Shown here: positions 5,066-21,307 of the stretch, one piece after another
Layout: each line of letters starts with the position of its first letter
How positions within the stretch are numbered: position 1 is the first letter of the stretch
Virus record (IMG/VR): IMGVR_UViG_3300013104_000082
Coordinates: 1 to 21,307 of that record
Direction: 5' to 3' (one strand)
Length of the DNA: 21,307 bases
DNA from: a virus
Made by a program: the position numbers and the translations under genes
Notes under the pieces: model-generated
What the model saw: only the letters and a program-made list of their open reading frames with translations
Database searches by the model: none
Told to the model about the DNA's origin: nothing

Positions 5066-5246
5066 ACCACCGAAACACACGGTCTTTCACAACTGCAGAG
5101 CGGCACACGACGAACGAGTCAGAGAAGGGCAGTGCAAGGGGTCGCAAGTACTTCGGTACTTTGGCAGGCTAGGCACTCACCGGGACTCGACAGAATCGAA
5201 ACTCAAGTACTAAGACAACCCCGAACGAGACGAGAGGATAGACGAC
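5066..5246 (+). other. Transcribed leader with a UUCG-capped hairpin
   Basis: This 180-nt stretch follows the rightward promoter and has no convincing gene. It contains AAGTAC-TTCG-GTACTT (5146-5161), a 6-bp stem closed by a C(UUCG)G tetraloop, a fold known to be unusually stable in RNA. No U-run follows, so it is not an ordinary terminator; a regulatory or processing role is possible. Another GTAC copy lies at 5207. Confidence 0.5.
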
Positions 5247-5471
5247 ATGACAGCATCGACGCAGTACTCAGGCATTACCGAAGTACCCGAAGTACCACGG
5301 CCGGCAGTACCACGGCCGGCGTTACCAGATAAACGCGCCGGCGTTGAAGAAGTACGCAGGTGGATCGACCAGTACGATCGCGCCGGCGTACCACCGGCAG
5401 AACGTACTCAGCCCGTACCAGCCCGTACTTCGGGTACTCGTACTAGCCCGTACCAGCCTGTACTCAGCTGA
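5247..5471 (+). CDS. Possible small Pro-rich protein (74 aa) overlapping a DNA repeat array
   Basis: An open frame of 74 codons with a fair ribosome-binding site (GAGAGG, 9 nt before the ATG). The product has a V-P repeat section (EVPEVPRPAVPRPALP), a more normal helical stretch (VEEVRRWIDQYDRAGVPP) and a repeat-derived tail (PVPARTSGTRTSPYQPVLS). The tail is dictated by the GTAC DNA repeats, which also run through other frames and beyond the stop, so the coding signal may be incidental. The central helix and the RBS argue for a gene; the repetitive DNA argues against. No family is recognised. Confidence 0.4.
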   Translation: MTASTQYSGITEVPEVPRPAVPRPALPDKRAGVEEVRRWIDQYDRAGVPPAERTQPVPARTSGTRTSPYQPVLS

Positions 5472-5517
5472 TCCGTACCAGAACAAACCAGCCCGTACTA
5501 CCAGTACCAGCAGGTAC
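5264..5517. repeat. Dense GTAC-centred repeat array with about 10-bp phasing
   Basis: GTAC occurs 18 times between 5264 and 5517. From 5404 to 5517 the copies start at 5404, 5415, 5425, 5434, 5440, 5450, 5460, 5475, 5495, 5504 and 5514, so most are 9-11 bp apart. The commonest unit is CAGCCCGTAC. A perfect tandem 15-bp repeat, AGTACCACGGCCGGC, lies at 5291-5305 and 5306-5320, and CGCGCCGGCGT occurs twice (5334, 5380). Spacing near one helical turn suggests cooperative protein binding on one DNA face. The array crosses the end of the doubtful ORF at 5247-5471 and continues to the start of the 404-aa gene. Confidence 0.75.
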
Positions 5518-5536
5518 ACCGAAAATAGGAGATGAA

Positions 5537-6751
5537 GTGCCAGTTCTACAGTTGACCGAAGACCAGCAGGATGCAGTCGAGTTGCTCAACGAGGATCTCG
5601 TTGCAGTTGCTCTTGGCAATGGCTGGGCAGAGGTCGGACCGTCCGGTTGCAATGACGACTACGCGTTCACCGTGCTGGAGCACGCCGGCCTGGATGGCAA
5701 GTTGCAACTGCTCGTCGCGGTGTTCGACTCCGAGGCCGACAGCAGCCCCGACAAGTTTGTGATCGGTAACAAGGTGATCAGTCAGTCCGAAATGCTGGCG
5801 CTGATCAACACCAACCACCGTGTGCCGCCCACTGATGCCGCCCATAGTGCCGCCCATACGGAGGAGACTGTGCCGCCCACTGCTGTGCCGCCCACCAGCA
5901 CCGATGCAATGCCGCCCACTGTGCCTCCCACTGGGGAATCCGATGCCGCCCATAGCGAGGAGGTGCTCGATGCCGCCCACCAGCACAAGGAGAAGCTGGA
6001 AGAGTACGGGGAGATGCCGCCCACCAGCGAGGAAGCATTCTGGGTCGGCAAGACCAACCTGCTCGAAACTGATTACGATCCGGACACGGTCAGCCAGGAA
6101 ACCATCGACGCTGGTGCCGCCCGTATCGCGGAGTCGATCGACGGAGCTCCCGAAGACCTGCCGTTGCCGACCAAGGTCACCTTCATGGACATCGGCTTCG
6201 ATCTGTTGTGGAACAAGGACGAGAGTGCCGCCCACGCAACAGTGAGCAACCCGGATCGCCTGGGAGAGTCGCACGCCGCGCTGGCGATCAAACTCAAGCA
6301 CACGCTCGAGGACGAACTGATGCTCGATCCGAGGGAGGGTGACCGCTGGATCGCGGAGTGTGACGCTGTGCTCAAGGCCAACGCTGACGTGAAGCAGGCC
6401 CAGAAGCATCCCACGCCGGACAAGAACCATCAGCCCGCGTACTCGGAGAACGAGACGCACGAGGCTGCCGCTGACCTGGCACAGGACGAGGATCGGTTGT
6501 GGTCGAACCTGGTCTCTCATCTGTCCGACGAGGAGATCATCAAGGCGGTGCTAGGCAAGACGGTCCACTGGCACAACAAGCACAGCCGACGAGACAACTC
6601 GGCCAAGGTGACCGCCAAGGCCACCAACCACCCGGCCCAGATCACCTCCAATCTGATCGACCAGGACGACTACCGCACCCTCTCGTTCCTGGAGGAAGGT
6701 GGCGGCTTCCGCTCGCTCGCGGTGTGCCGCATCACCAAGATCACCCGATAA
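5537..6751 (+). CDS. Hypothetical 404-aa protein with repeat-bearing linker; candidate replication initiator
   Basis: The first long rightward gene. The GTG at 5537 follows AATAGGAGATGAA; an ATG at 5532 is in a frame that stops after seven codons. The protein has an N-terminal domain (about 1-95), a low-complexity linker of PPT and AAH peptides (about 95-170), and a C-terminal part ending in VHWHNKHSRRDNSAKV and FLEEGGGFRSLAVCRI (about 345-400), which looks like a small beta domain. No catalytic motif is visible and I cannot name the family. The linker DNA carries the TGCCGCCCA array described separately. In phage lambda the O initiator gene likewise carries origin iterons in its linker region; by analogy only, this could be an initiator or another protein that binds its own gene. 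Confidence 0.8.
   Translation: MPVLQLTEDQQDAVELLNEDLVAVALGNGWAEVGPSGCNDDYAFTVLEHAGLDGKLQLLVAVFDSEADSSPDKFVIGNKVISQSEMLALINTNHRVPPTDAAHSAAHTEETVPPTAVPPTSTDAMPPTVPPTGESDAAHSEEVLDAAHQHKEKLEEYGEMPPTSEEAFWVGKTNLLETDYDPDTVSQETIDAGAARIAESIDGAPEDLPLPTKVTFMDIGFDLLWNKDESAAHATVSNPDRLGESHAALAIKLKHTLEDELMLDPREGDRWIAECDAVLKANADVKQAQKHPTPDKNHQPAYSENETHEAAADLAQDEDRLWSNLVSHLSDEEIIKAVLGKTVHWHNKHSRRDNSAKVTAKATNHPAQITSNLIDQDDYRTLSFLEEGGGFRSLAVCRITKITR
5823..6234 (+). repeat. TGCCGCCCA direct-repeat array inside the 404-aa gene (candidate origin or binding array)
   Basis: Exact TGCCGCCCA starts at 5823, 5836, 5848, 5871, 5886, 5910, 5944, 5971, 6015 and 6226, with one-mismatch copies at 5922 and 6115. All have the same orientation; several share an extended form, ATGCCGCCCA followed by YHRG. 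The copies occupy two reading frames of the gene, reading as PPT in one and AAH in the other, so the DNA word is kept while the peptide changes. I found no other copy on either strand in the window by eye. The spacing in the dense part is 12-27 bp. Confidence 0.85.
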
Positions 6752-11529: not shown

Positions 11530-12294
11530 ATGCCTCCCGTGATCCTCAAGGCAGAGGACTACACCCCGTACATCTCCATGCTGCTGTACTCCGACCCCGG
11601 AGTCGGCAAGACGGTCTTCGCCACCAGCTCGGAGTCTCCGACGCTGGTCCTGGCCACCGAGGAGGGCACCCTCTCCGGTGTCCGGCAGGGAGCGCAGTTC
11701 GACATCATCGAATGCTTCGCCCCCGAAGGTGGCTGGGAGGCGTTCGAGGAGTCAATCGACTGGCTCTACGACGGCAACGCGGAGAAGTACAACTGGGTCG
11801 TCGTCGACACCGCGACCAGCCTACAGCGGCGGATCATGCAGCACCTTTCGATCACGCGGTCGAACGATCCCTCCGCGAAGAACCGGAACCCCGACAAGTA
11901 CCAGTTGGACGAGTACGGGGAACAGCAGGTCAAGTTCCAGAAGGCCGTCGAGCGGCTCATCGCTCTGCCGGTCAACGTCCTGTTCACCGCTCATGCTCGG
12001 ATGGCCGAAGACCAGGACGGCGAGTTGTACGTCAAGCCTGACATCCACGGCAAGGAAGCCAAGGCCGGCGAGTTGGCGGTCTGGTTGTCCGCGAACGTCA
12101 TGGCCACCGGCTTCATGTCTCCGATCACCTACAAGAAGAAGGTCGACGGAGCAGAGAAAATCATCCAGGGCCGACAGATCCAATGGCGCGGGAACGAGAA
12201 GGTCCGCGCCAAGGACCGCTTCGACGTCCTCGGAGATCGCACGATCGACAAGTCGCTCAAGCACATCGAGGATCTCATCTTCGCCGACGACTGA
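11530..12294 (+). CDS. Sak4-like RecA-fold ATPase, single-strand annealing recombinase (254 aa)
   Basis: A compact RecA-fold ATPase. Walker A is SDPGVGKT (21-28) and Walker B is NWVVVDTAT (88-96, D93). The strand-4 region NVLFTAHARM fits the sensor-type segment of this family. Length and lack of extra domains match the Sak4 group of phage annealing proteins, which are distant RecA relatives and act with a cognate ssDNA-binding protein. The next gene looks like such a partner. Other AAA-type phage ATPases annotated as nucleotide-binding proteins are the alternative. The ATG at 11530 is 1 nt after the previous stop. Confidence 0.85.
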   Translation: MPPVILKAEDYTPYISMLLYSDPGVGKTVFATSSESPTLVLATEEGTLSGVRQGAQFDIIECFAPEGGWEAFEESIDWLYDGNAEKYNWVVVDTATSLQRRIMQHLSITRSNDPSAKNRNPDKYQLDEYGEQQVKFQKAVERLIALPVNVLFTAHARMAEDQDGELYVKPDIHGKEAKAGELAVWLSANVMATGFMSPITYKKKVDGAEKIIQGRQIQWRGNEKVRAKDRFDVLGDRTIDKSLKHIEDLIFADD

Positions 12295-12305
12295 TCGTGT
12301 AGCCT

Positions 12306-12311
12306 TACATT
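12306..12311 (+). promoter_or_regulatory. Possible -10 box before the gene at 12362
   Basis: TACATT, identical to the -10 box of the promoters at 2544 and 4958, lies 50 nt before the start codon in a 67-nt intergenic gap. No good -35 box is seen, so this is weak. Confidence 0.3.
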
Positions 12312-12361
12312 TCCACCGCTCGTAGAAACACCCCATCATCACAATTCAGGAGTAACAGCAG

Positions 12362-13216
12362 ATGCCCAAGATCAAGCTCGGTCTCAACGCGCAGGACAAA
12401 GCAGCCCTCGACAAGGCAGCAGAAGAGAACAGTTTCGCGCGGTACGACGGGGACATCCCGCCGAACGGCCTCTACAAGGCCGTCATCAAGGTGGTCAACT
12501 ACATGATGAGCAAGGAGAAGGTCGTCAACGGCGAAACCGTCGAAGGCAAGCCCCAACTCCGCGCGGTCGTCGAGATCAAGGAGCCGAAGGGCTCCGAGAA
12601 GGCCGAGTACAACGGCTACGCTCTCTTTCACTACATCACACTCCCCGTCGACCCGTCGTACGAGTACTACGGCCTGCAGTCCGCTCAGACGAAAGAGTTT
12701 CTCTGTGCTCTCGCCGGCGGTGACGAGTCGGCCTGGAAGGGCTACAAGGACGACAACATGGTCGGTGACGAGTCCAAGGTCATGAAGGTGACCAAGTTCG
12801 GTACGTACAGCCACAACCACAAGGTCGGATCGCCGGTCAAGATCATGATCGAGCAGGACGGCGAGTACAAGGGACAGCCCAACATGCGGATCAAGCAGTT
12901 CGGCCTGATCAAGGGAGCCAGTAAGCCCGAGGTCGACGCCAGCGTCGAGGAGCCCGAGAGCATCCCTCTCGTCGAGGACGACGAGCCGCCGACCAAGCCC
13001 GAGCCGAAGGAAGAGCCCAAGCGTGAAGACGTGGAGCCTGCTGCTGTGGAAACGGAAGCACCTGTGGATACAGGTGACGACGCAACGGACGAGAGTCCTG
13101 CTGCAGGTGAACAGCGTGATGAAGCGGCCTCGGACGATAGTGGATCTTCGGATTCCGGGGATGCCGCGAGTGAAGCTGCTCCGCGCCGACGACGCCGACG
13201 CTTTGCTGACGCATAA
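12362..13216 (+). CDS. Probable single-stranded-DNA-binding protein with long acidic tail (284 aa)
   Basis: A 284-residue protein with a folded N-terminal part (about 1-190; strands such as GLYKAVIKVVNYMM, QLRAVVEIKEPKG, GSPVKIMIEQDG) and a long disordered tail (about 195-272) of Glu, Asp, Pro and Ala. Replication-type phage SSBs often have this layout, and the place just after the Sak4-like gene fits a cognate SSB. Classical SSBs end in an acidic tip; here the tail ends in a run of arginines followed by FADA, which is unusual. No OB-fold motif can be proven by eye, so the function is inferred from context and composition. An AGGAG site precedes the ATG. Confidence 0.65.
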   Translation: MPKIKLGLNAQDKAALDKAAEENSFARYDGDIPPNGLYKAVIKVVNYMMSKEKVVNGETVEGKPQLRAVVEIKEPKGSEKAEYNGYALFHYITLPVDPSYEYYGLQSAQTKEFLCALAGGDESAWKGYKDDNMVGDESKVMKVTKFGTYSHNHKVGSPVKIMIEQDGEYKGQPNMRIKQFGLIKGASKPEVDASVEEPESIPLVEDDEPPTKPEPKEEPKREDVEPAAVETEAPVDTGDDATDESPAAGEQRDEAASDDSGSSDSGDAASEAAPRRRRRRFADA

Positions 13217-14718: not shown

Positions 14719-15651
14719 GTGGAGTTCGTTTCCCTTCACAATCACACGACGTTCTCGCTCGGAGACGGTTTCAAGCGGCCCCAGTTCCACGTAGAGCGTG
14801 CCGCCGAGCTCGGGATGACCGCGATGGGCGTCTCCGAGCACGGCGGGATCTCCTCTCACGCTCAGTTCGAAGTGTGGGGCGAGAAGCTCGGAGTCAAGAT
14901 CATCTTCGGCTGCGAGTTCTACGTGACCGAGGGACCGAATCTATCGAAGTTCCACCAGACCGTTTTTGCCATGAACGAAGAGGGGTACCGGAACCTATGT
15001 CGACTCGTCACTCGCTCGTACAAGGAAGGGTTCTACAAGTATCCGACTGTCCACACGGAATGGCTGATGGACCCTGCGCAGACTGCTGGCTTGATAGTCC
15101 TGTCCGGCTGCGCGGACTCCTGGTTGAGTTGCTCGATTTTGGGTGGAAAGTCCTACGGGGATCGAAGGGAGGACTGGGAGCAGGAGGACGCACATCGGGG
15201 ACGGCGGCTGGTCGAGAGATTCCAGTCCGTGTACGGGGACCGATTCTACCTCGAAACTCAGCGGTTCCCAGGGCTCGAGAGGTCGACGATCCTCAACCAG
15301 TGCTTCGCAGACATTTCCTCGATGACTGGTGCGAAGATGGCAGCGACCGCCGACGTGCATTATCCCCTCCCGGAGCAGAATGCGATGCAGCGAATCCTGC
15401 ACGCGGGCTCCCGCTCGACGGGAACTGTCGCAGCTGCCGACGCCTCCTGGGAGTACGACATCCTGCTGACCTACCCCGAGAGTGACGAGCAGATCCGAGG
15501 CCAGTTCCTCGAGCAGGAGTTGACCACCACCGAAGCGGACTCGGCCATCGCCAGTACGCGCGAGATCGCAGACCGATGCAACGTCGTGTTGCCGAAGTCA
15601 ACCCCCATCATCTACAAGCCGAGACCAGGAGACGAAGACCCATGGGTATGA
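14719..15651 (+). CDS. DNA polymerase III alpha subunit, separate PHP domain (310 aa)
   Basis: The N-terminal PHP domain of a bacterial-type replicative polymerase, here as its own polypeptide. The metal-binding layout is kept: HNH (H7, H9), SEHG (E40, H41), GCEFY (E66), SGC, and DVH (D212, H214), so it could be an active phosphoesterase or proofreading exonuclease, as in many actinobacterial DnaE1 proteins. It ends at residues IADRCNVVLPKSTP, equal to the point where PHP joins the palm in full-length DnaE. The polymerase half follows at 15811, in the same frame but separated by stop codons. Together they total 1132 residues, close to full-length DnaE. GTG start directly after the previous stop. 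Confidence 0.9.
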   Translation: MEFVSLHNHTTFSLGDGFKRPQFHVERAAELGMTAMGVSEHGGISSHAQFEVWGEKLGVKIIFGCEFYVTEGPNLSKFHQTVFAMNEEGYRNLCRLVTRSYKEGFYKYPTVHTEWLMDPAQTAGLIVLSGCADSWLSCSILGGKSYGDRREDWEQEDAHRGRRLVERFQSVYGDRFYLETQRFPGLERSTILNQCFADISSMTGAKMAATADVHYPLPEQNAMQRILHAGSRSTGTVAAADASWEYDILLTYPESDEQIRGQFLEQELTTTEADSAIASTREIADRCNVVLPKSTPIIYKPRPGDEDPWV

Positions 15652-15833
15652 GCCCGCTAGGTAAGCGCAGCGAAGGCGAGCGACGAACGAGTTGCGACAA
15701 TTGCGGGAAGGCTATGTACCCGGACCGCCTGCACATCATCACCGAGAGAGCAACAACAGAGAAGCCGTACGGCGACTGCATCGTCACCGTTCACAACTGG
15801 GAGGAAGGCCGTGGCCGCGTTATCTTCCAGTGA
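15648..15833 (+). CDS. Small zinc-ribbon-like protein wedged between polymerase halves (61 aa)
   Basis: A 61-residue protein in a different frame from the polymerase halves. Its ATG overlaps the PHP stop as ATGA, and its end overlaps the GTG of the polymerase gene by 23 nt. It contains TSCDNCGKAM (C-x2-C, residues 17-20) and a later Cys (YGDCIVTVHNWEEG), suggesting half a zinc ribbon, which might need a partner or a His ligand. An alternative ATG two codons upstream (15642) is possible. No family is recognised. The position suggests co-translation with, and perhaps bridging of, the two polymerase halves; that is inference. Confidence 0.75.
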   Translation: MSPLGKRSEGERRTSCDNCGKAMYPDRLHIITERATTEKPYGDCIVTVHNWEEGRGRVIFQ

Positions 15834-18279
15834 GCTGCTGTGGAAGTGGGTCGACTACGGCATCGACTACCGCCTGGAGCGCTCTCCCCGCTTCCGGCGG
15901 AACTTCTACCCTCGTGAGGACGAGTACATCGAGCGGGCCAAGATGGAGGTCGGCGTCATCAACGGGAAGGACTTCCCGGACTACTTCCTGGTGACCTCCG
16001 ACCTGATCCGCTGGGCGAAGGACCGGCCGGAGGGGAGCATCACGATCGGGCCCGGTCGTGGCTCTGCAGCGGGTTCGTTCGTCTGCTACGCGCTCCGGAT
16101 CACCGAGATCGACCCGGTACCGAATCCGCTGATGCTATTCGAGCGGTTCATCGACCCCGGCCGACCGGACTACCCGGACATCGACATCGACGTGGCAGAC
16201 CACAAGCGGCACCTGCTCGTCGAGAGGCTGGTGGACCTCTACGGTCGCGATTATGTCGCCAACATCGGAAACTACCTCCGCTACCGGGGCAAGACCGCGC
16301 TGGAGACGGTGGCCGGCGTCTACACGATCCCGTCGTACGAGATCGCAGACGTCAAGAAGTTGGTCGTCGACCGGCCCGACGGCGATGCCCGCGAGGAAAA
16401 CAGTTTCGAGGACACCGTCGAGGCGTTCGCGGAGGCTCAGGCTCTCGTTCGCAAGCATCCCGAGCTCAAGTACGCGTACGAGTTGGAAGGTGACTACAAG
16501 AGCCTCGGCACACACGCCGCCGGCATCGTCATCTCCAACACCCCGATCGAGGACATCTGTGCCGTCTACCAGCGCACCAAGGCCGACGGCACGGAGATGT
16601 CGGTCATCTCGTACGACAAGCGGGACGCCGAGCGCCAGGGGGTCCTCAAGCTGGATCTGCTCGGCCTGGCCAACATGGGGATTGTCGACGACTGCATCTC
16701 GTGGGTTCCGGAGTTGACGCTCGAAGGAATGTACGAGTTGGAACTCGACGACGAGAAGACCCTCGAAGGATTCCGCAACGGGAACCTGGCCGGGATCTTC
16801 CAGTACTCGGGCCGAACGACCCGCGGGATCACGAAGCGGATCTACGAGCGCACGATCGGCATGGAGGCGGAGAACCCCATCTCCTTCGACACGCTGGCCG
16901 ACATCAACGCGCTCTCGCGGCCCGGTTCGCTGATCTCGGGCATGACCGACAAGTACATCGCGGTCGAGAACGGGAAGGCTCAGCCGGAGAAGTTCCATCC
17001 GGTCGTCGACAACATCCTCGGCAGCTCGCACGGGTGTCTCGTCTACCAGGAGCAGGTAATGAAGATCGGCTCCGAGTTGGGCGGGTTCCCCGGCGACAAG
17101 GTGGGCGCGCTCCGCAAGATCATCGGCAAGAAGACGGCCGGCGGCGCGTTCGAGGCGTACTACGAGGAGTTTGCCAAGGGCGCGATGGAGTTGCACGGTA
17201 TGCCCGAGAAGACCGCTCGGGTCATCTGGGATTACATGGCGGCATCCGCGTCGTACCTGTTCAACGTGGCGCACTCGGTGAGTTACGCGGTCATCGCCTA
17301 CTGGATGATGTGGCTCAAGGTCCACTACCCGGCTGAGTTCTACGCGGCATCGCTCCGTCGGGCCAAGAAGACCAAGGACAAGGACCCCGCGCTCGAACTG
17401 ATGCAGGCCGCGGTGCGGGACGGGATCAAGGTGCTCCCGCCGGACCTCCGCTTCAAACACCAGATCACCTGGACGCCAGATCACACCTACGGTCCGAAGT
17501 TCCAGAGGATTCCCGCTGTGCAGGCGGGGTTCACGCAGATTCCTGGAGTCGGGGAGAGCATGGCGCAGGCCATCATCGACTACCAGACCGGCGAGAATCG
17601 GAACGGGGAGTTCGCGATGAAGTGGAAGGAGTTGCAGTACACCCCGGCCAAGAAGAAGAGGCAGCGCTTCCCCTGCACACCGTACGAACACACCCTCCCC
17701 AGCGGCAAGGTGGTCACGCGAGACTGGGTGTCGGAGGATGTGATCGCGGAGGAGTCCAAGGGTGTCCCCGGACTCGGCAAGACCACCCTGGACAAGATCA
17801 TCGCGTGGACCGAGAAGGACGATCCCTTCGACATCCACCTGGCCGAACGGTCGTGCGCGATGGTGTACACCGCCATCAACCGCGGCAAGATCCCGCTGGA
17901 CCTGCCGACGGCCGACGGCACCTACGTGGCCAGCGCGCCGGACAAGGAGGTCGTCTTCATCGGGATCGTCAACGAGGTTCGGATCATCGACATCATCGAG
18001 TCCGAGAGGAAGAGGACCGGACTCACCGCGGAGGAGGTTAGGGCTACACTCACCAAGCACCCCGACAAGACCACCAAGGCCAAACTGATCACCACCGATC
18101 ACACCGGCGTCGAGGTCCACATCAACATCGACCGAATCCGCTACCCACAGTTCGCGGAGGACATCGAGTCAATCACCCCCAGGGTTGACGTCGTTCACGT
18201 CCAGGGCAGGACCCGCGACGGCTACGGCGCCACCATCCAGGCCGACTACGTGTCGGTCATCGACCTATCAGGAGAATGA
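15811..18279 (+). CDS. dnaE: DNA polymerase III alpha subunit, polymerase core (822 aa)
   Basis: The catalytic part of a C-family replicative DNA polymerase, starting where the PHP domain ends. The palm has GPGRGSAAGS (80-89), PDIDID (122-127; D123 and D125 match the catalytic pair of E. coli DnaE) and KLDLLGL with the third aspartate (D282). The fingers include GALRKIIGKK and HSVSYAVIAYW. A helix-hairpin-helix stretch (PGVGESMAQ; VPGLGKTTLDKI) and a probable C-terminal OB region follow. All core motifs are present, so it should be active, presumably with the separate PHP protein. It begins with GTG inside the 61-aa gene; the RuvC-like gene overlaps its stop. No separate beta-clamp or loader gene is in the window, so host factors may be used. 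Confidence 0.93.
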   Translation: MAALSSSELLWKWVDYGIDYRLERSPRFRRNFYPREDEYIERAKMEVGVINGKDFPDYFLVTSDLIRWAKDRPEGSITIGPGRGSAAGSFVCYALRITEIDPVPNPLMLFERFIDPGRPDYPDIDIDVADHKRHLLVERLVDLYGRDYVANIGNYLRYRGKTALETVAGVYTIPSYEIADVKKLVVDRPDGDAREENSFEDTVEAFAEAQALVRKHPELKYAYELEGDYKSLGTHAAGIVISNTPIEDICAVYQRTKADGTEMSVISYDKRDAERQGVLKLDLLGLANMGIVDDCISWVPELTLEGMYELELDDEKTLEGFRNGNLAGIFQYSGRTTRGITKRIYERTIGMEAENPISFDTLADINALSRPGSLISGMTDKYIAVENGKAQPEKFHPVVDNILGSSHGCLVYQEQVMKIGSELGGFPGDKVGALRKIIGKKTAGGAFEAYYEEFAKGAMELHGMPEKTARVIWDYMAASASYLFNVAHSVSYAVIAYWMMWLKVHYPAEFYAASLRRAKKTKDKDPALELMQAAVRDGIKVLPPDLRFKHQITWTPDHTYGPKFQRIPAVQAGFTQIPGVGESMAQAIIDYQTGENRNGEFAMKWKELQYTPAKKKRQRFPCTPYEHTLPSGKVVTRDWVSEDVIAEESKGVPGLGKTTLDKIIAWTEKDDPFDIHLAERSCAMVYTAINRGKIPLDLPTADGTYVASAPDKEVVFIGIVNEVRIIDIIESERKRTGLTAEEVRATLTKHPDKTTKAKLITTDHTGVEVHINIDRIRYPQFAEDIESITPRVDVVHVQGRTRDGYGATIQADYVSVIDLSGE

Positions 18280-18979: not shown

Positions 18980-19360
18980 ATGAACTCTGAGAAGCTATCC
19001 ACCAAGCGCGCCGCCGAGCATCTCGGCATCGCCCAGACCACCCTGAAACGGATGGTCGCGGCAGGTCAGGTCCAGGTACACCGCAAGCCGAACAAGCACA
19101 AGTCGCGGCTGTACTTCGACAAGGCCCACCTCGACCGCCTCCTCCAGGCTGGACCCCCACAACTTCAGCGCGTACGGAACAACGAGAAGGTCGACCCGGA
19201 GACCTCGTACACGACCACTCAGGTCTGTCAGGTTCTCGGTATCGACCGGACCACCGTCCGCGACTGGGAGAAGAAAGGCCTGATCGTAGGCCTAAGGGCA
19301 CACAACCGTGTGTACTACGACCGCACTACCATCGACACAATTCGAGAGGCAAGAAATTGA
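18980..19360 (+). CDS. Transcriptional regulator with two MerR/excisionase-type HTH domains (126 aa)
   Basis: A DNA-binding protein made of two similar winged-helix-turn-helix units. The first (about 5-55) reads STKRAAEHLGIAQTTLKRMV then a wing and YFDKAHLDRLL; the second (about 72-120) reads TTTQVCQVLGIDRTTVRDWE, a wing (HNRVYYD) and RTTIDTIREA. Each matches the helix-turn-helix/wing pattern of MerR- and excisionase-like proteins. Two copies in one chain could bind a site with two half-sites without dimerising. It may act on one of the repeat arrays or promoters of this window, which is untested. There is only a short leader (ACCACCGAAA directly before the ATG), so translation may be unusual. 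The next gene begins by overlapping its stop (TTGA). Confidence 0.8.
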   Translation: MNSEKLSTKRAAEHLGIAQTTLKRMVAAGQVQVHRKPNKHKSRLYFDKAHLDRLLQAGPPQLQRVRNNEKVDPETSYTTTQVCQVLGIDRTTVRDWEKKGLIVGLRAHNRVYYDRTTIDTIREARN

Positions 19361-20506: not shown

Positions 20507-20701
20507 GTGACCGCTACTGACCAAGGACTCTGCTACACCGTTCACAAGCACCAGGCTCATCTCTGGGACGAGTCACTCGACAGTTCCGGGCCGACGGCCA
20601 AACGGGAGAGTCCGCAGATGAAGCGGTTCCGAAGATCAATGGCAAGGGGCATCTGTCAAAGGTGCCCCTTGTCCACCACCTGCGAATACAAGATCGAATA
20701 G
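20507..20701 (+). CDS. Minimal WhiB-like [4Fe-4S] protein (64 aa)
   Basis: A very short member, or relative, of the WhiB family of actinobacterial Fe-S transcription factors. One N-terminal cysteine (C9) and the C-terminal ICQRCPLSTTCEYK (C50, C53, C59) give the C-x(n)-C-x2-C-x5-C pattern with the CPL/CPV signature. The usual GVWGG turn and basic C-terminal DNA-binding tail are absent, so it may bind the host sigma factor without contacting DNA directly. Phage WhiB proteins are known to act on host gene expression (WhiBTM4 of mycobacteriophage TM4). The start is GTG after GTAAGGA. It precedes the primase gene by 7 nt. Confidence 0.8.
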   Translation: MTATDQGLCYTVHKHQAHLWDESLDSSGPTAKRESPQMKRFRRSMARGICQRCPLSTTCEYKIE

Positions 20702-20708
20702 GACATCC

Positions 20709-21307
20709 ATGTCGTACGCGGACAACGCGCAGAAGTACATCGACGCTGGCTGGGACAGCCCGATGCCCCTCCCCAGAGGCCAGAAGTACCCGCCGCCAGA
20801 GAACTCCACCGGAAACCACCCCGACATCACCCTCCAGAAGATTGGTGAGTGGGTCGAAGAGTCGAGCCCCAACTCCAACATCGCGCTGCGTATGCCCCGC
20901 GGCAAGGACTGGGAGATCATCGGCATCGACATCGACCACCACGACACCAAACGCGGCAACGACACCATCCTCAAGGCCGAGTCCACTCACGGTAAACTCC
21001 CCGACTCGTTCTCCTGTAGCTCGCGTGGCAGCAAGAACCGCCACGGCATTCACTTCTACCGCGTTCCGCGGGGCATCAAGTGGGATGGACAGATCGGCCC
21101 GTCGGTCGAGGTCATCCAGCGCACCCACCGCTACGCCGTGGTCGCCCCGTCCGTCGTCGAGGGCCGCGAGTACACCTGGTACGACGCCGACGGCGACGAG
21201 TGGGACATGGGCATCCCGAAGGTGTCCACGCTCCCCGACCTGCCCCAATCCTGGATCGACGCGTTCTCCAAGGGCGCCGCCATCGACCGGAAGCCCATCG
21301 CGGAAGA
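20709..21307 (+). CDS. Bifunctional primase-polymerase (prim-pol), N-terminal 199 aa, truncated by the window
   Basis: The start of an archaeo-eukaryotic-type primase-polymerase that makes primers for phage DNA synthesis. The first 199 codons include the family opening (YIDAGWDSPMPLPRGQKYPP, with the GW-P-P-KxP pattern), the metal-binding GIDID (D74, D76), SSRGSKNRHGIHFYR (H115 near the substrate-binding position), and VEVIQRTHRYAVVAPS (133-148), which equals the ExR-x-x-G-x-YVVAPPS block. A C-terminal helicase domain may follow outside the window. It lies next to the WhiB-like gene. Because the window ends inside it, whether it is intact is unknown. Confidence 0.88.
   Translation, partial: MSYADNAQKYIDAGWDSPMPLPRGQKYPPPENSTGNHPDITLQKIGEWVEESSPNSNIALRMPRGKDWEIIGIDIDHHDTKRGNDTILKAESTHGKLPDSFSCSSRGSKNRHGIHFYRVPRGIKWDGQIGPSVEVIQRTHRYAVVAPSVVEGREYTWYDADGDEWDMGIPKVSTLPDLPQSWIDAFSKGAAIDRKPIAE

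Follow-up and report, generated by a model that had tools for sequence, protein, structure and literature searches.

Why does the first gene of a phage replication operon carry ten exact copies of a 9-mer, TGCCGCCCA, all in one orientation and written in two reading frames of the same gene? The window analyzed here, a stretch of 21,307 bases from a virus record, aligns over 94% of its length, at ~95% identity, with the replication arm of Rhodococcus phage ChewyVIII (NC_073456, Zierdtviridae), and the 404-aa protein encoded by the array-bearing gene shows 97.8% identity with ChewyVIII gp85. The array marks a putative protein-binding site that is most likely a replication origin, and the evidence for this reading, together with that for its alternatives, is given below.

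The array and its gene

The preliminary description took the 404-aa gene to open the replication arm, and the gene order agrees: it is the first gene of a rightward replication operon, directly past a divergent region, and it is followed by genes for an SNF2-type helicase, a Cas4-type exonuclease, a Sak4-like ATPase, a methylase, a DnaE-like polymerase, RuvC, a tandem HTH protein and a prim-pol/D5 primase-helicase. DNA polymerase III alpha is apparently encoded by two genes (14719-15651 and 15811-18279 in the window) with a small gene between them, corresponding to ChewyVIII gp72, gp71 and gp70. The 404-aa protein itself is predicted to consist of an alpha-beta N-terminal domain, a disordered linker and a small C-terminal beta-barrel carrying the GGGFRSVAV motif. 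The coordinates of these features are listed in Table 1.

Table 1. Features of the window that bear on the TGCCGCCCA array
Feature	Position	Strand	Remarks
GTAC-rich region, CCGAAGTAC repeats	5147..5530		possible operator or accessory site
Array-bearing gene, 404-aa protein	5537..6751	+	phrog_12059 (function unknown); ChewyVIII gp85 homolog
Segment coding N-terminal domain	5537..5822	+	alpha-beta4-alpha in model of GTE8 homolog, pLDDT mostly 70-86
Array, ten exact TGCCGCCCA and three one-mismatch copies, single orientation	5823..6234	+	extended consensus RTGCCGCCCAY
Dense core, nine exact copies	5823..6023	+	spacings 13, 12, 23, 15, 24, 34, 27, 44; one-mismatch copy at 5922
Tenth exact copy, outlying ~200 bp further on, SAAH frame	6226..6234	+	ChewyVIII has equivalent copy
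Segment coding conserved C-terminal domain	6428..6748	+	small beta-barrel in model; motif GGGFRSVAV
126-aa tandem MerR/excisionase-like winged-HTH protein, candidate binder	18980..19357	+	phrog_1729; in 14/14 array-bearing records
Prim-pol/D5-type primase-helicase gene, 5' part (window end cuts gene)	20691..21281	+	likely downstream replication enzyme

Exact copies of TGCCGCCCA start at 5823, 5836, 5848, 5871, 5886, 5910, 5944, 5971, 6015 and 6226, all on the + strand, and outside the 404-aa gene the whole 21,307-base window holds none on either strand; by chance, ~0.2 exact copies would be expected per window under a first-order Markov model. The count on both strands therefore confirms the ten exact copies in one orientation that had been described, whereas the two near-exact copies reported with them have to be revised to three one-mismatch copies, at 5922 (TGCCTCCCA), 6115 (TGCCGCCCG) and 6165 (TGCCGACCA). 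The use of two reading frames in one gene, also noticed earlier, is an even split, with five exact copies read as (V/M)PPT and five as (D/S)AAH. When synonymous codons were shuffled within the 404-aa gene, with its protein sequence and codon usage kept, TGCCGCCCA occurred 1.26 times on average and at most 6 times in 5,000 trials, compared with the 10 copies observed. These results suggest that protein sequence and codon usage alone are insufficient to produce ten copies.

Conservation across the phage family

By tblastn, homologs of the 404-aa protein were detected in 74 records from phages of Gordonia, Rhodococcus and Nocardia. We compared 13 of these loci, ChewyVIII and relatives in viral contigs, which together give 25 distinct genes and 204 words. 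All of the 25 genes bear 6 to 11 exact copies of TGCCGCCCA in the linker-coding part and always in the sense of the gene, while protein identity among them drops to ~30% and the linker otherwise aligns poorly. The 9-mers common to all of 16 divergent homologous genes are exclusively those overlapping TGCCGCCCA.

In 12 complete genomes the array is found at the homologous gene only, with 0 to 3 stray copies elsewhere: nine of the 12 (64-69 kb) have no stray copy, and the others have one to three scattered ones on the opposite strand. As a control, TGCCGCCCA read backwards occurs at most twice per genome in the same 12 genomes. The array is also the densest 9-mer cluster in the window and in each of the six genomes examined. 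The count in genomes and relatives, proposed as a check in the preliminary description, thus gives one locus per genome and no even spread. Among viral contigs, three-copy arrays were found in 43 stretches, and the combination of two frames with a homologous protein is seen solely in genes of Zierdtviridae type, the remaining arrays being repeats in unrelated ORFs and nearly all single-frame. Among 84,980 species genomes, closely spaced triple copies are present at 72 loci, none of which encodes a homolog of the 404-aa protein; the loci with 12/13 spacing that were inspected among these 72 are simple repeats or belong to one shared chromosomal gene, which we take to be MetX-like.

Short direct-repeat arrays are also the form that pac and parC/parS sites can take, and the array could accordingly be a packaging site or a partition centromere, the latter having been named beside an origin in the preliminary description. 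The pac site of SPP1, moreover, overlaps a gene (PMC6316719). However, in ChewyVIII the terminase small subunit gene and the annotated genome end are ~6 kb away from the array. Among the Rhodococcus phages described in PMC13313380, circular permutation is stated for Jace and Finch only, which implies defined ends in ChewyVIII and the CR6/CR7 relatives and also argues against a pac-like role. A centromere is unlikely and poorly supported, as no partition genes are present among the annotated genes of ChewyVIII (this concerns annotation only, and the genome of the window is incomplete) and the Gordonia-phage relative GTE8 is obligately lytic by description (PMC4524720). We consider packaging or partition together a very unlikely explanation of the array.

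Selection on the nucleic-acid word

The consensus over the 204 words, with flanking positions included, is RTGCCGCCCAY, and the codons that write it depart strongly from those used elsewhere. The Ser preceding AAH is encoded by AGT in all 82 word copies as compared with 11 of 397 Ser codons elsewhere in these genes, and the Val preceding PPT or PPI is encoded by GTG in 81 of 81 cases versus 207 of 541 outside the words. The codon preceding AAH is always NNT (AGT, GAT, CGT or GGT), although only 6.6% of the other codons end in T. Relatives that keep the peptides and lose the word were looked for and not seen: PPT is written CCG CCC A.. in 80 of 81 cases and AAH is written GCC GCC CA. in 112 of 112, the single exception among these 193 peptides being the window's own copy at 5922. 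The reverse is observed, as TGCCGCCCA is retained through the peptide changes PPT to PPI and AAH to AAQ (VPPI, SAAQ and TAAQ are seen). Two of the three frames are occupied, and the third, which would read Cys-Arg-Pro, is never used.

Because word copies are not independent, either within a gene or between related genes, seven divergent genes were also tested singly. The AGT bias is individually significant (p < 0.03) in six of them (the window, CoffeeBean, MacGully, GTE8, L073 and Fury), and the seventh, NC1, has one Ser preceding AAH in total; the bias toward T-ending codons holds in each of the seven (p < 4e-4). Across the family, the codon bias and the peptide changes that spare the word strongly support the earlier claim of a word that stays constant as DNA under varying peptides. 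The target of selection is the nucleic acid, be it at the DNA or the RNA level, and the array is almost certainly a cis-acting nucleic-acid element.

Repeats in coding DNA are often driven by the protein, an example being a MacGully gene with collagen-like AAGGGTGAC repeats, and VPPT and SAAH do recur in the linker. It could thus be argued that the linker needs PPT and AAH motifs, for instance to bind a partner, and that their codons are alike through recent internal duplication. However, this explanation is largely refuted by the codon evidence, namely the contrast in AGT use and the word codons in 192 of 193 PPT/AAH peptides. Moreover, one word encodes two unrelated peptides and survives when they change, synonymous variation is nearly absent in the two frames used, and the spacers between copies are unrelated, hence the array is not a simple tandem duplication. 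The codon biases and the two-frame use therefore exclude a simple protein repeat, and a requirement at the protein level is extremely improbable as the source of the array. The AAGGGTGAC clusters (11810-12436 in MacGully and 17145-17808 in ChewyVIII) are unrelated to the array; those in MacGully are collagen-like coding repeats, in contrast to the two-frame array.

A different possibility is that the word is read in RNA, as a row of unstructured binding sites in the leading mRNA for a protein of antitermination, Rho or translational control. The strand specificity of the copies, which are always in sense, their C-rich composition and the lower degree of structure of the array RNA relative to dinucleotide shuffles (z +2.2) are all consistent with it. 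On the other hand, recognition of the Rho type would not need a 9-mer to stay exact where protein identity is as low as 30%, no RNA-binding partner was identified, and we know of no analogous nut-like element in these phages. An RNA-level role is quite unlikely in our estimate.

Upstream sequences and possible transcriptional control

The region 250-900 bp before the array contains 21 copies of GTAC where 4.0 are expected, an excess of about five-fold, and the count in ChewyVIII is identical; most relatives have just a few GTAC copies immediately before the gene. In the loci of seven Gordonia phages (L008 to L014), one to four tandem TCGAAC-N5-TTCGA palindromes lie ~525-590 bp upstream of the array. 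Genome-wide, Outis and GTE8 have three of these palindromes each, at the locus upstream of the array only, and none is present in the window, ChewyVIII, MacGully or CoffeeBean. The palindrome resembles the actinobacterial LexA (SOS) box, which suggests that the replication operon may be under SOS control by the host.

The strongest rival to an origin is an array that controls transcription, in which same-direction operators in the first early gene would let a regulator of phage or host origin silence, pace or roadblock the replication operon, in the manner of stoperators or of a nucleoprotein filament of the BldC type. The copies are oriented with transcription and lie within a few hundred bases of the operon's start, each of the 14 array-bearing records encodes a MerR/Xis-like tandem winged-HTH protein, and the LexA-box-like tandem palindromes ~550 bp upstream in the Gordonia relatives suggest a regulated locus. 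In known stoperator systems, however, the sites are spread along the genome, whereas TGCCGCCCA is confined to one spot. Furthermore, operators have no need to be placed in coding DNA, where they constrain two frames of a protein. We therefore regard silencing or operator function as unlikely, despite its standing as the strongest rival.

Candidate binding proteins

If the array is bound by a protein, the candidates are the 404-aa protein itself and the 126-aa tandem winged-helix protein. By sequence, the 404-aa protein has no match in Pfam or the PDB, and a Foldseek search of two AlphaFold models (mean pLDDT 53 and 60) against the PDB gave no match with E < 0.1. Neither of its domains matches a known initiator by sequence or by fold, given models of low confidence, in agreement with the earlier statement that the protein has no recognized initiator fold. 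Outside the family, the searches with the C-terminal domain gave nothing convincing beyond one weak match of 51 residues (L181). The WYL-domain proteins PafBC and DriD and the Sm/SH3-like barrels in the VIA rows were rejected, as their scores (Z <= 3.8) are within noise.

The co-occurrence of the tandem winged-HTH protein with the array carries little weight, because many genes are common to all these phages. In 12 of 13 homologs of this protein, the second recognition segment, SRPTLRRWEREGKI, hardly varies, but in ChewyVIII and the window this segment is altered to DRTTVRDWEKKGLI while the word is unchanged, so this protein stays a lead. The MerR-like protein BldC binds direct repeats head-to-tail and in variable number (PMC5859096), and binding of this kind would, by analogy, fit copies that point in the same direction and are loosely spaced.

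The array as a putative replication origin

With its repeats in the part of the first replication gene that encodes the linker, its single locus per genome and a replisome of the phage's own, the system is reminiscent of lambda and SPP1, and for this reason we rate an origin of lytic replication as the best explanation of the array, with a probability of about one half; its position and architecture are like those of lambda O and SPP1 gene 38. The array would then be a row of same-direction sites for a sequence-specific and probably phage-encoded protein, hidden in the stretch that codes for the linker in the opening gene of the replication operon. An initiator, either the 404-aa protein or the tandem winged-HTH protein, would occupy neighboring copies, distort or open the DNA close to them, and recruit the prim-pol/helicase of the phage and the DnaE polymerase. 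Transcription of the operon crosses the array and could help activation, as in lambda.

Several observations weigh against this reading. Within 150 bp of the array, even the most AT-rich 40-bp window is ordinary (0.45-0.57). GC skew is uninformative as a marker, and its turning points generally do not coincide with the array. Of the earlier proposal of an origin, the position and architecture resembling lambda O therefore stand, whereas no adjoining AT-rich element, GC-skew signal or initiator fold was found. Since the adjacent AT-rich element was looked for and is missing, the array should not be filed without reservation as an origin of the lambda or SPP1 type. An AT-rich stretch ~400 bp upstream stands out in three of seven sequences (Outis, GTE8 and MacGully), and not in the window, NC1 or CoffeeBean. 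The spacings of copies across the family (12, 13, 17, 23-24 and 29-30) show no more than weak helix phasing, in sequences that are not independent of one another.

Away from the array, isolated 60-bp stretches of 70-88% AT occur in these genomes of 62-67% GC, at ~6.3-6.6 kb in ChewyVIII, ~6.3 kb in NC1, ~66.6 kb in MacGully, ~67.6 kb in Outis, ~59 kb in GTE8 and ~67 kb in CoffeeBean. These could possibly be promoters or an alternative unwinding site.

In the literature searched, we found neither a mapped origin of lytic replication in this family nor a paper describing TGCCGCCCA or the array. The GTE8 genome report noted repeats, but its authors could identify no replication origins in their phages (PMC4524720). 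The array offers a precise target throughout the family: a single exact word, at a single locus in each genome, with two proteins as candidate binders. In addition, the array neatly illustrates how a single DNA word can be carried in two reading frames, and thus how genomes may keep a putative binding site inside coding sequence.

Comparison with known systems

Among actinophages, the replication loci of mycobacteriophage RepA/parABS replicons offer a comparison; an origin within or next to repA was suggested by the authors, who found no repeated motif (PMC7157519). Those replicons are extrachromosomal prophages with repA or parAB, genes that are absent from the ChewyVIII annotation. The sites of BldC resemble the array in the variable number of direct repeats, and the phages studied here encode a MerR/Xis-like winged-HTH protein of their own. 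However, BldC repeats are imperfect and of AATT type (PMC5859096), whereas TGCCGCCCA is exact and GC-rich, and binding by the winged-HTH protein is putative here.

Plasmid origins with iterons (P1, RK2, R6K and pSC101) likewise have several direct repeats that point the same way. In general, iterons are in phase with the helix and adjoin an AT-rich element (PMC5043065), unlike the present array, which lies in a gene, with variable spacing and in a GC-rich context. SPP1 is a lytic siphovirus in which oriL is made up of direct repeats within gene 38; the product of this gene, gp38, is the origin-binding protein and binds them (PMC6316719). SPP1 has in addition a second origin, oriR, of the same organization and an AT-rich unwinding element, whereas no second array is seen here, and the searches done indicated no relationship between the 404-aa protein and gp38.

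The lambda origin is located in gene O, consists of repeats bound by the initiator and needs transcription through the region (PMC5043065). The array resembles it in having repeats in a gene of the replication operon that is transcribed through, and the analogy to the linker-coding part of O, drawn in the preliminary description, holds here, and the copies lie in the variable linker in 25 of 25 genes. The two differ in that lambda has a few repeats, of 19 bp and with inverted symmetry, beside a 40-bp AT-rich region, whereas the present phages have 6-11 asymmetric sites of 9-11 bp, with looser spacing, no adjoining AT-rich region and no recognized O-like fold. A more tentative possibility is that the array represents a new type of origin and initiator, in which GC-rich, unphased 9-mers of single orientation, written in two frames and with no AT-rich neighbor, would be served by a phrog_12059 initiator or by a MerR/Xis-like filament feeding the prim-pol/D5 helicase. 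If true, it would define origins across the whole family Zierdtviridae. An origin inside an initiator gene is of a known kind, as lambda and SPP1 illustrate, but its two-frame, GC-rich and loosely spaced form, with an unrecognized protein family, would be new.
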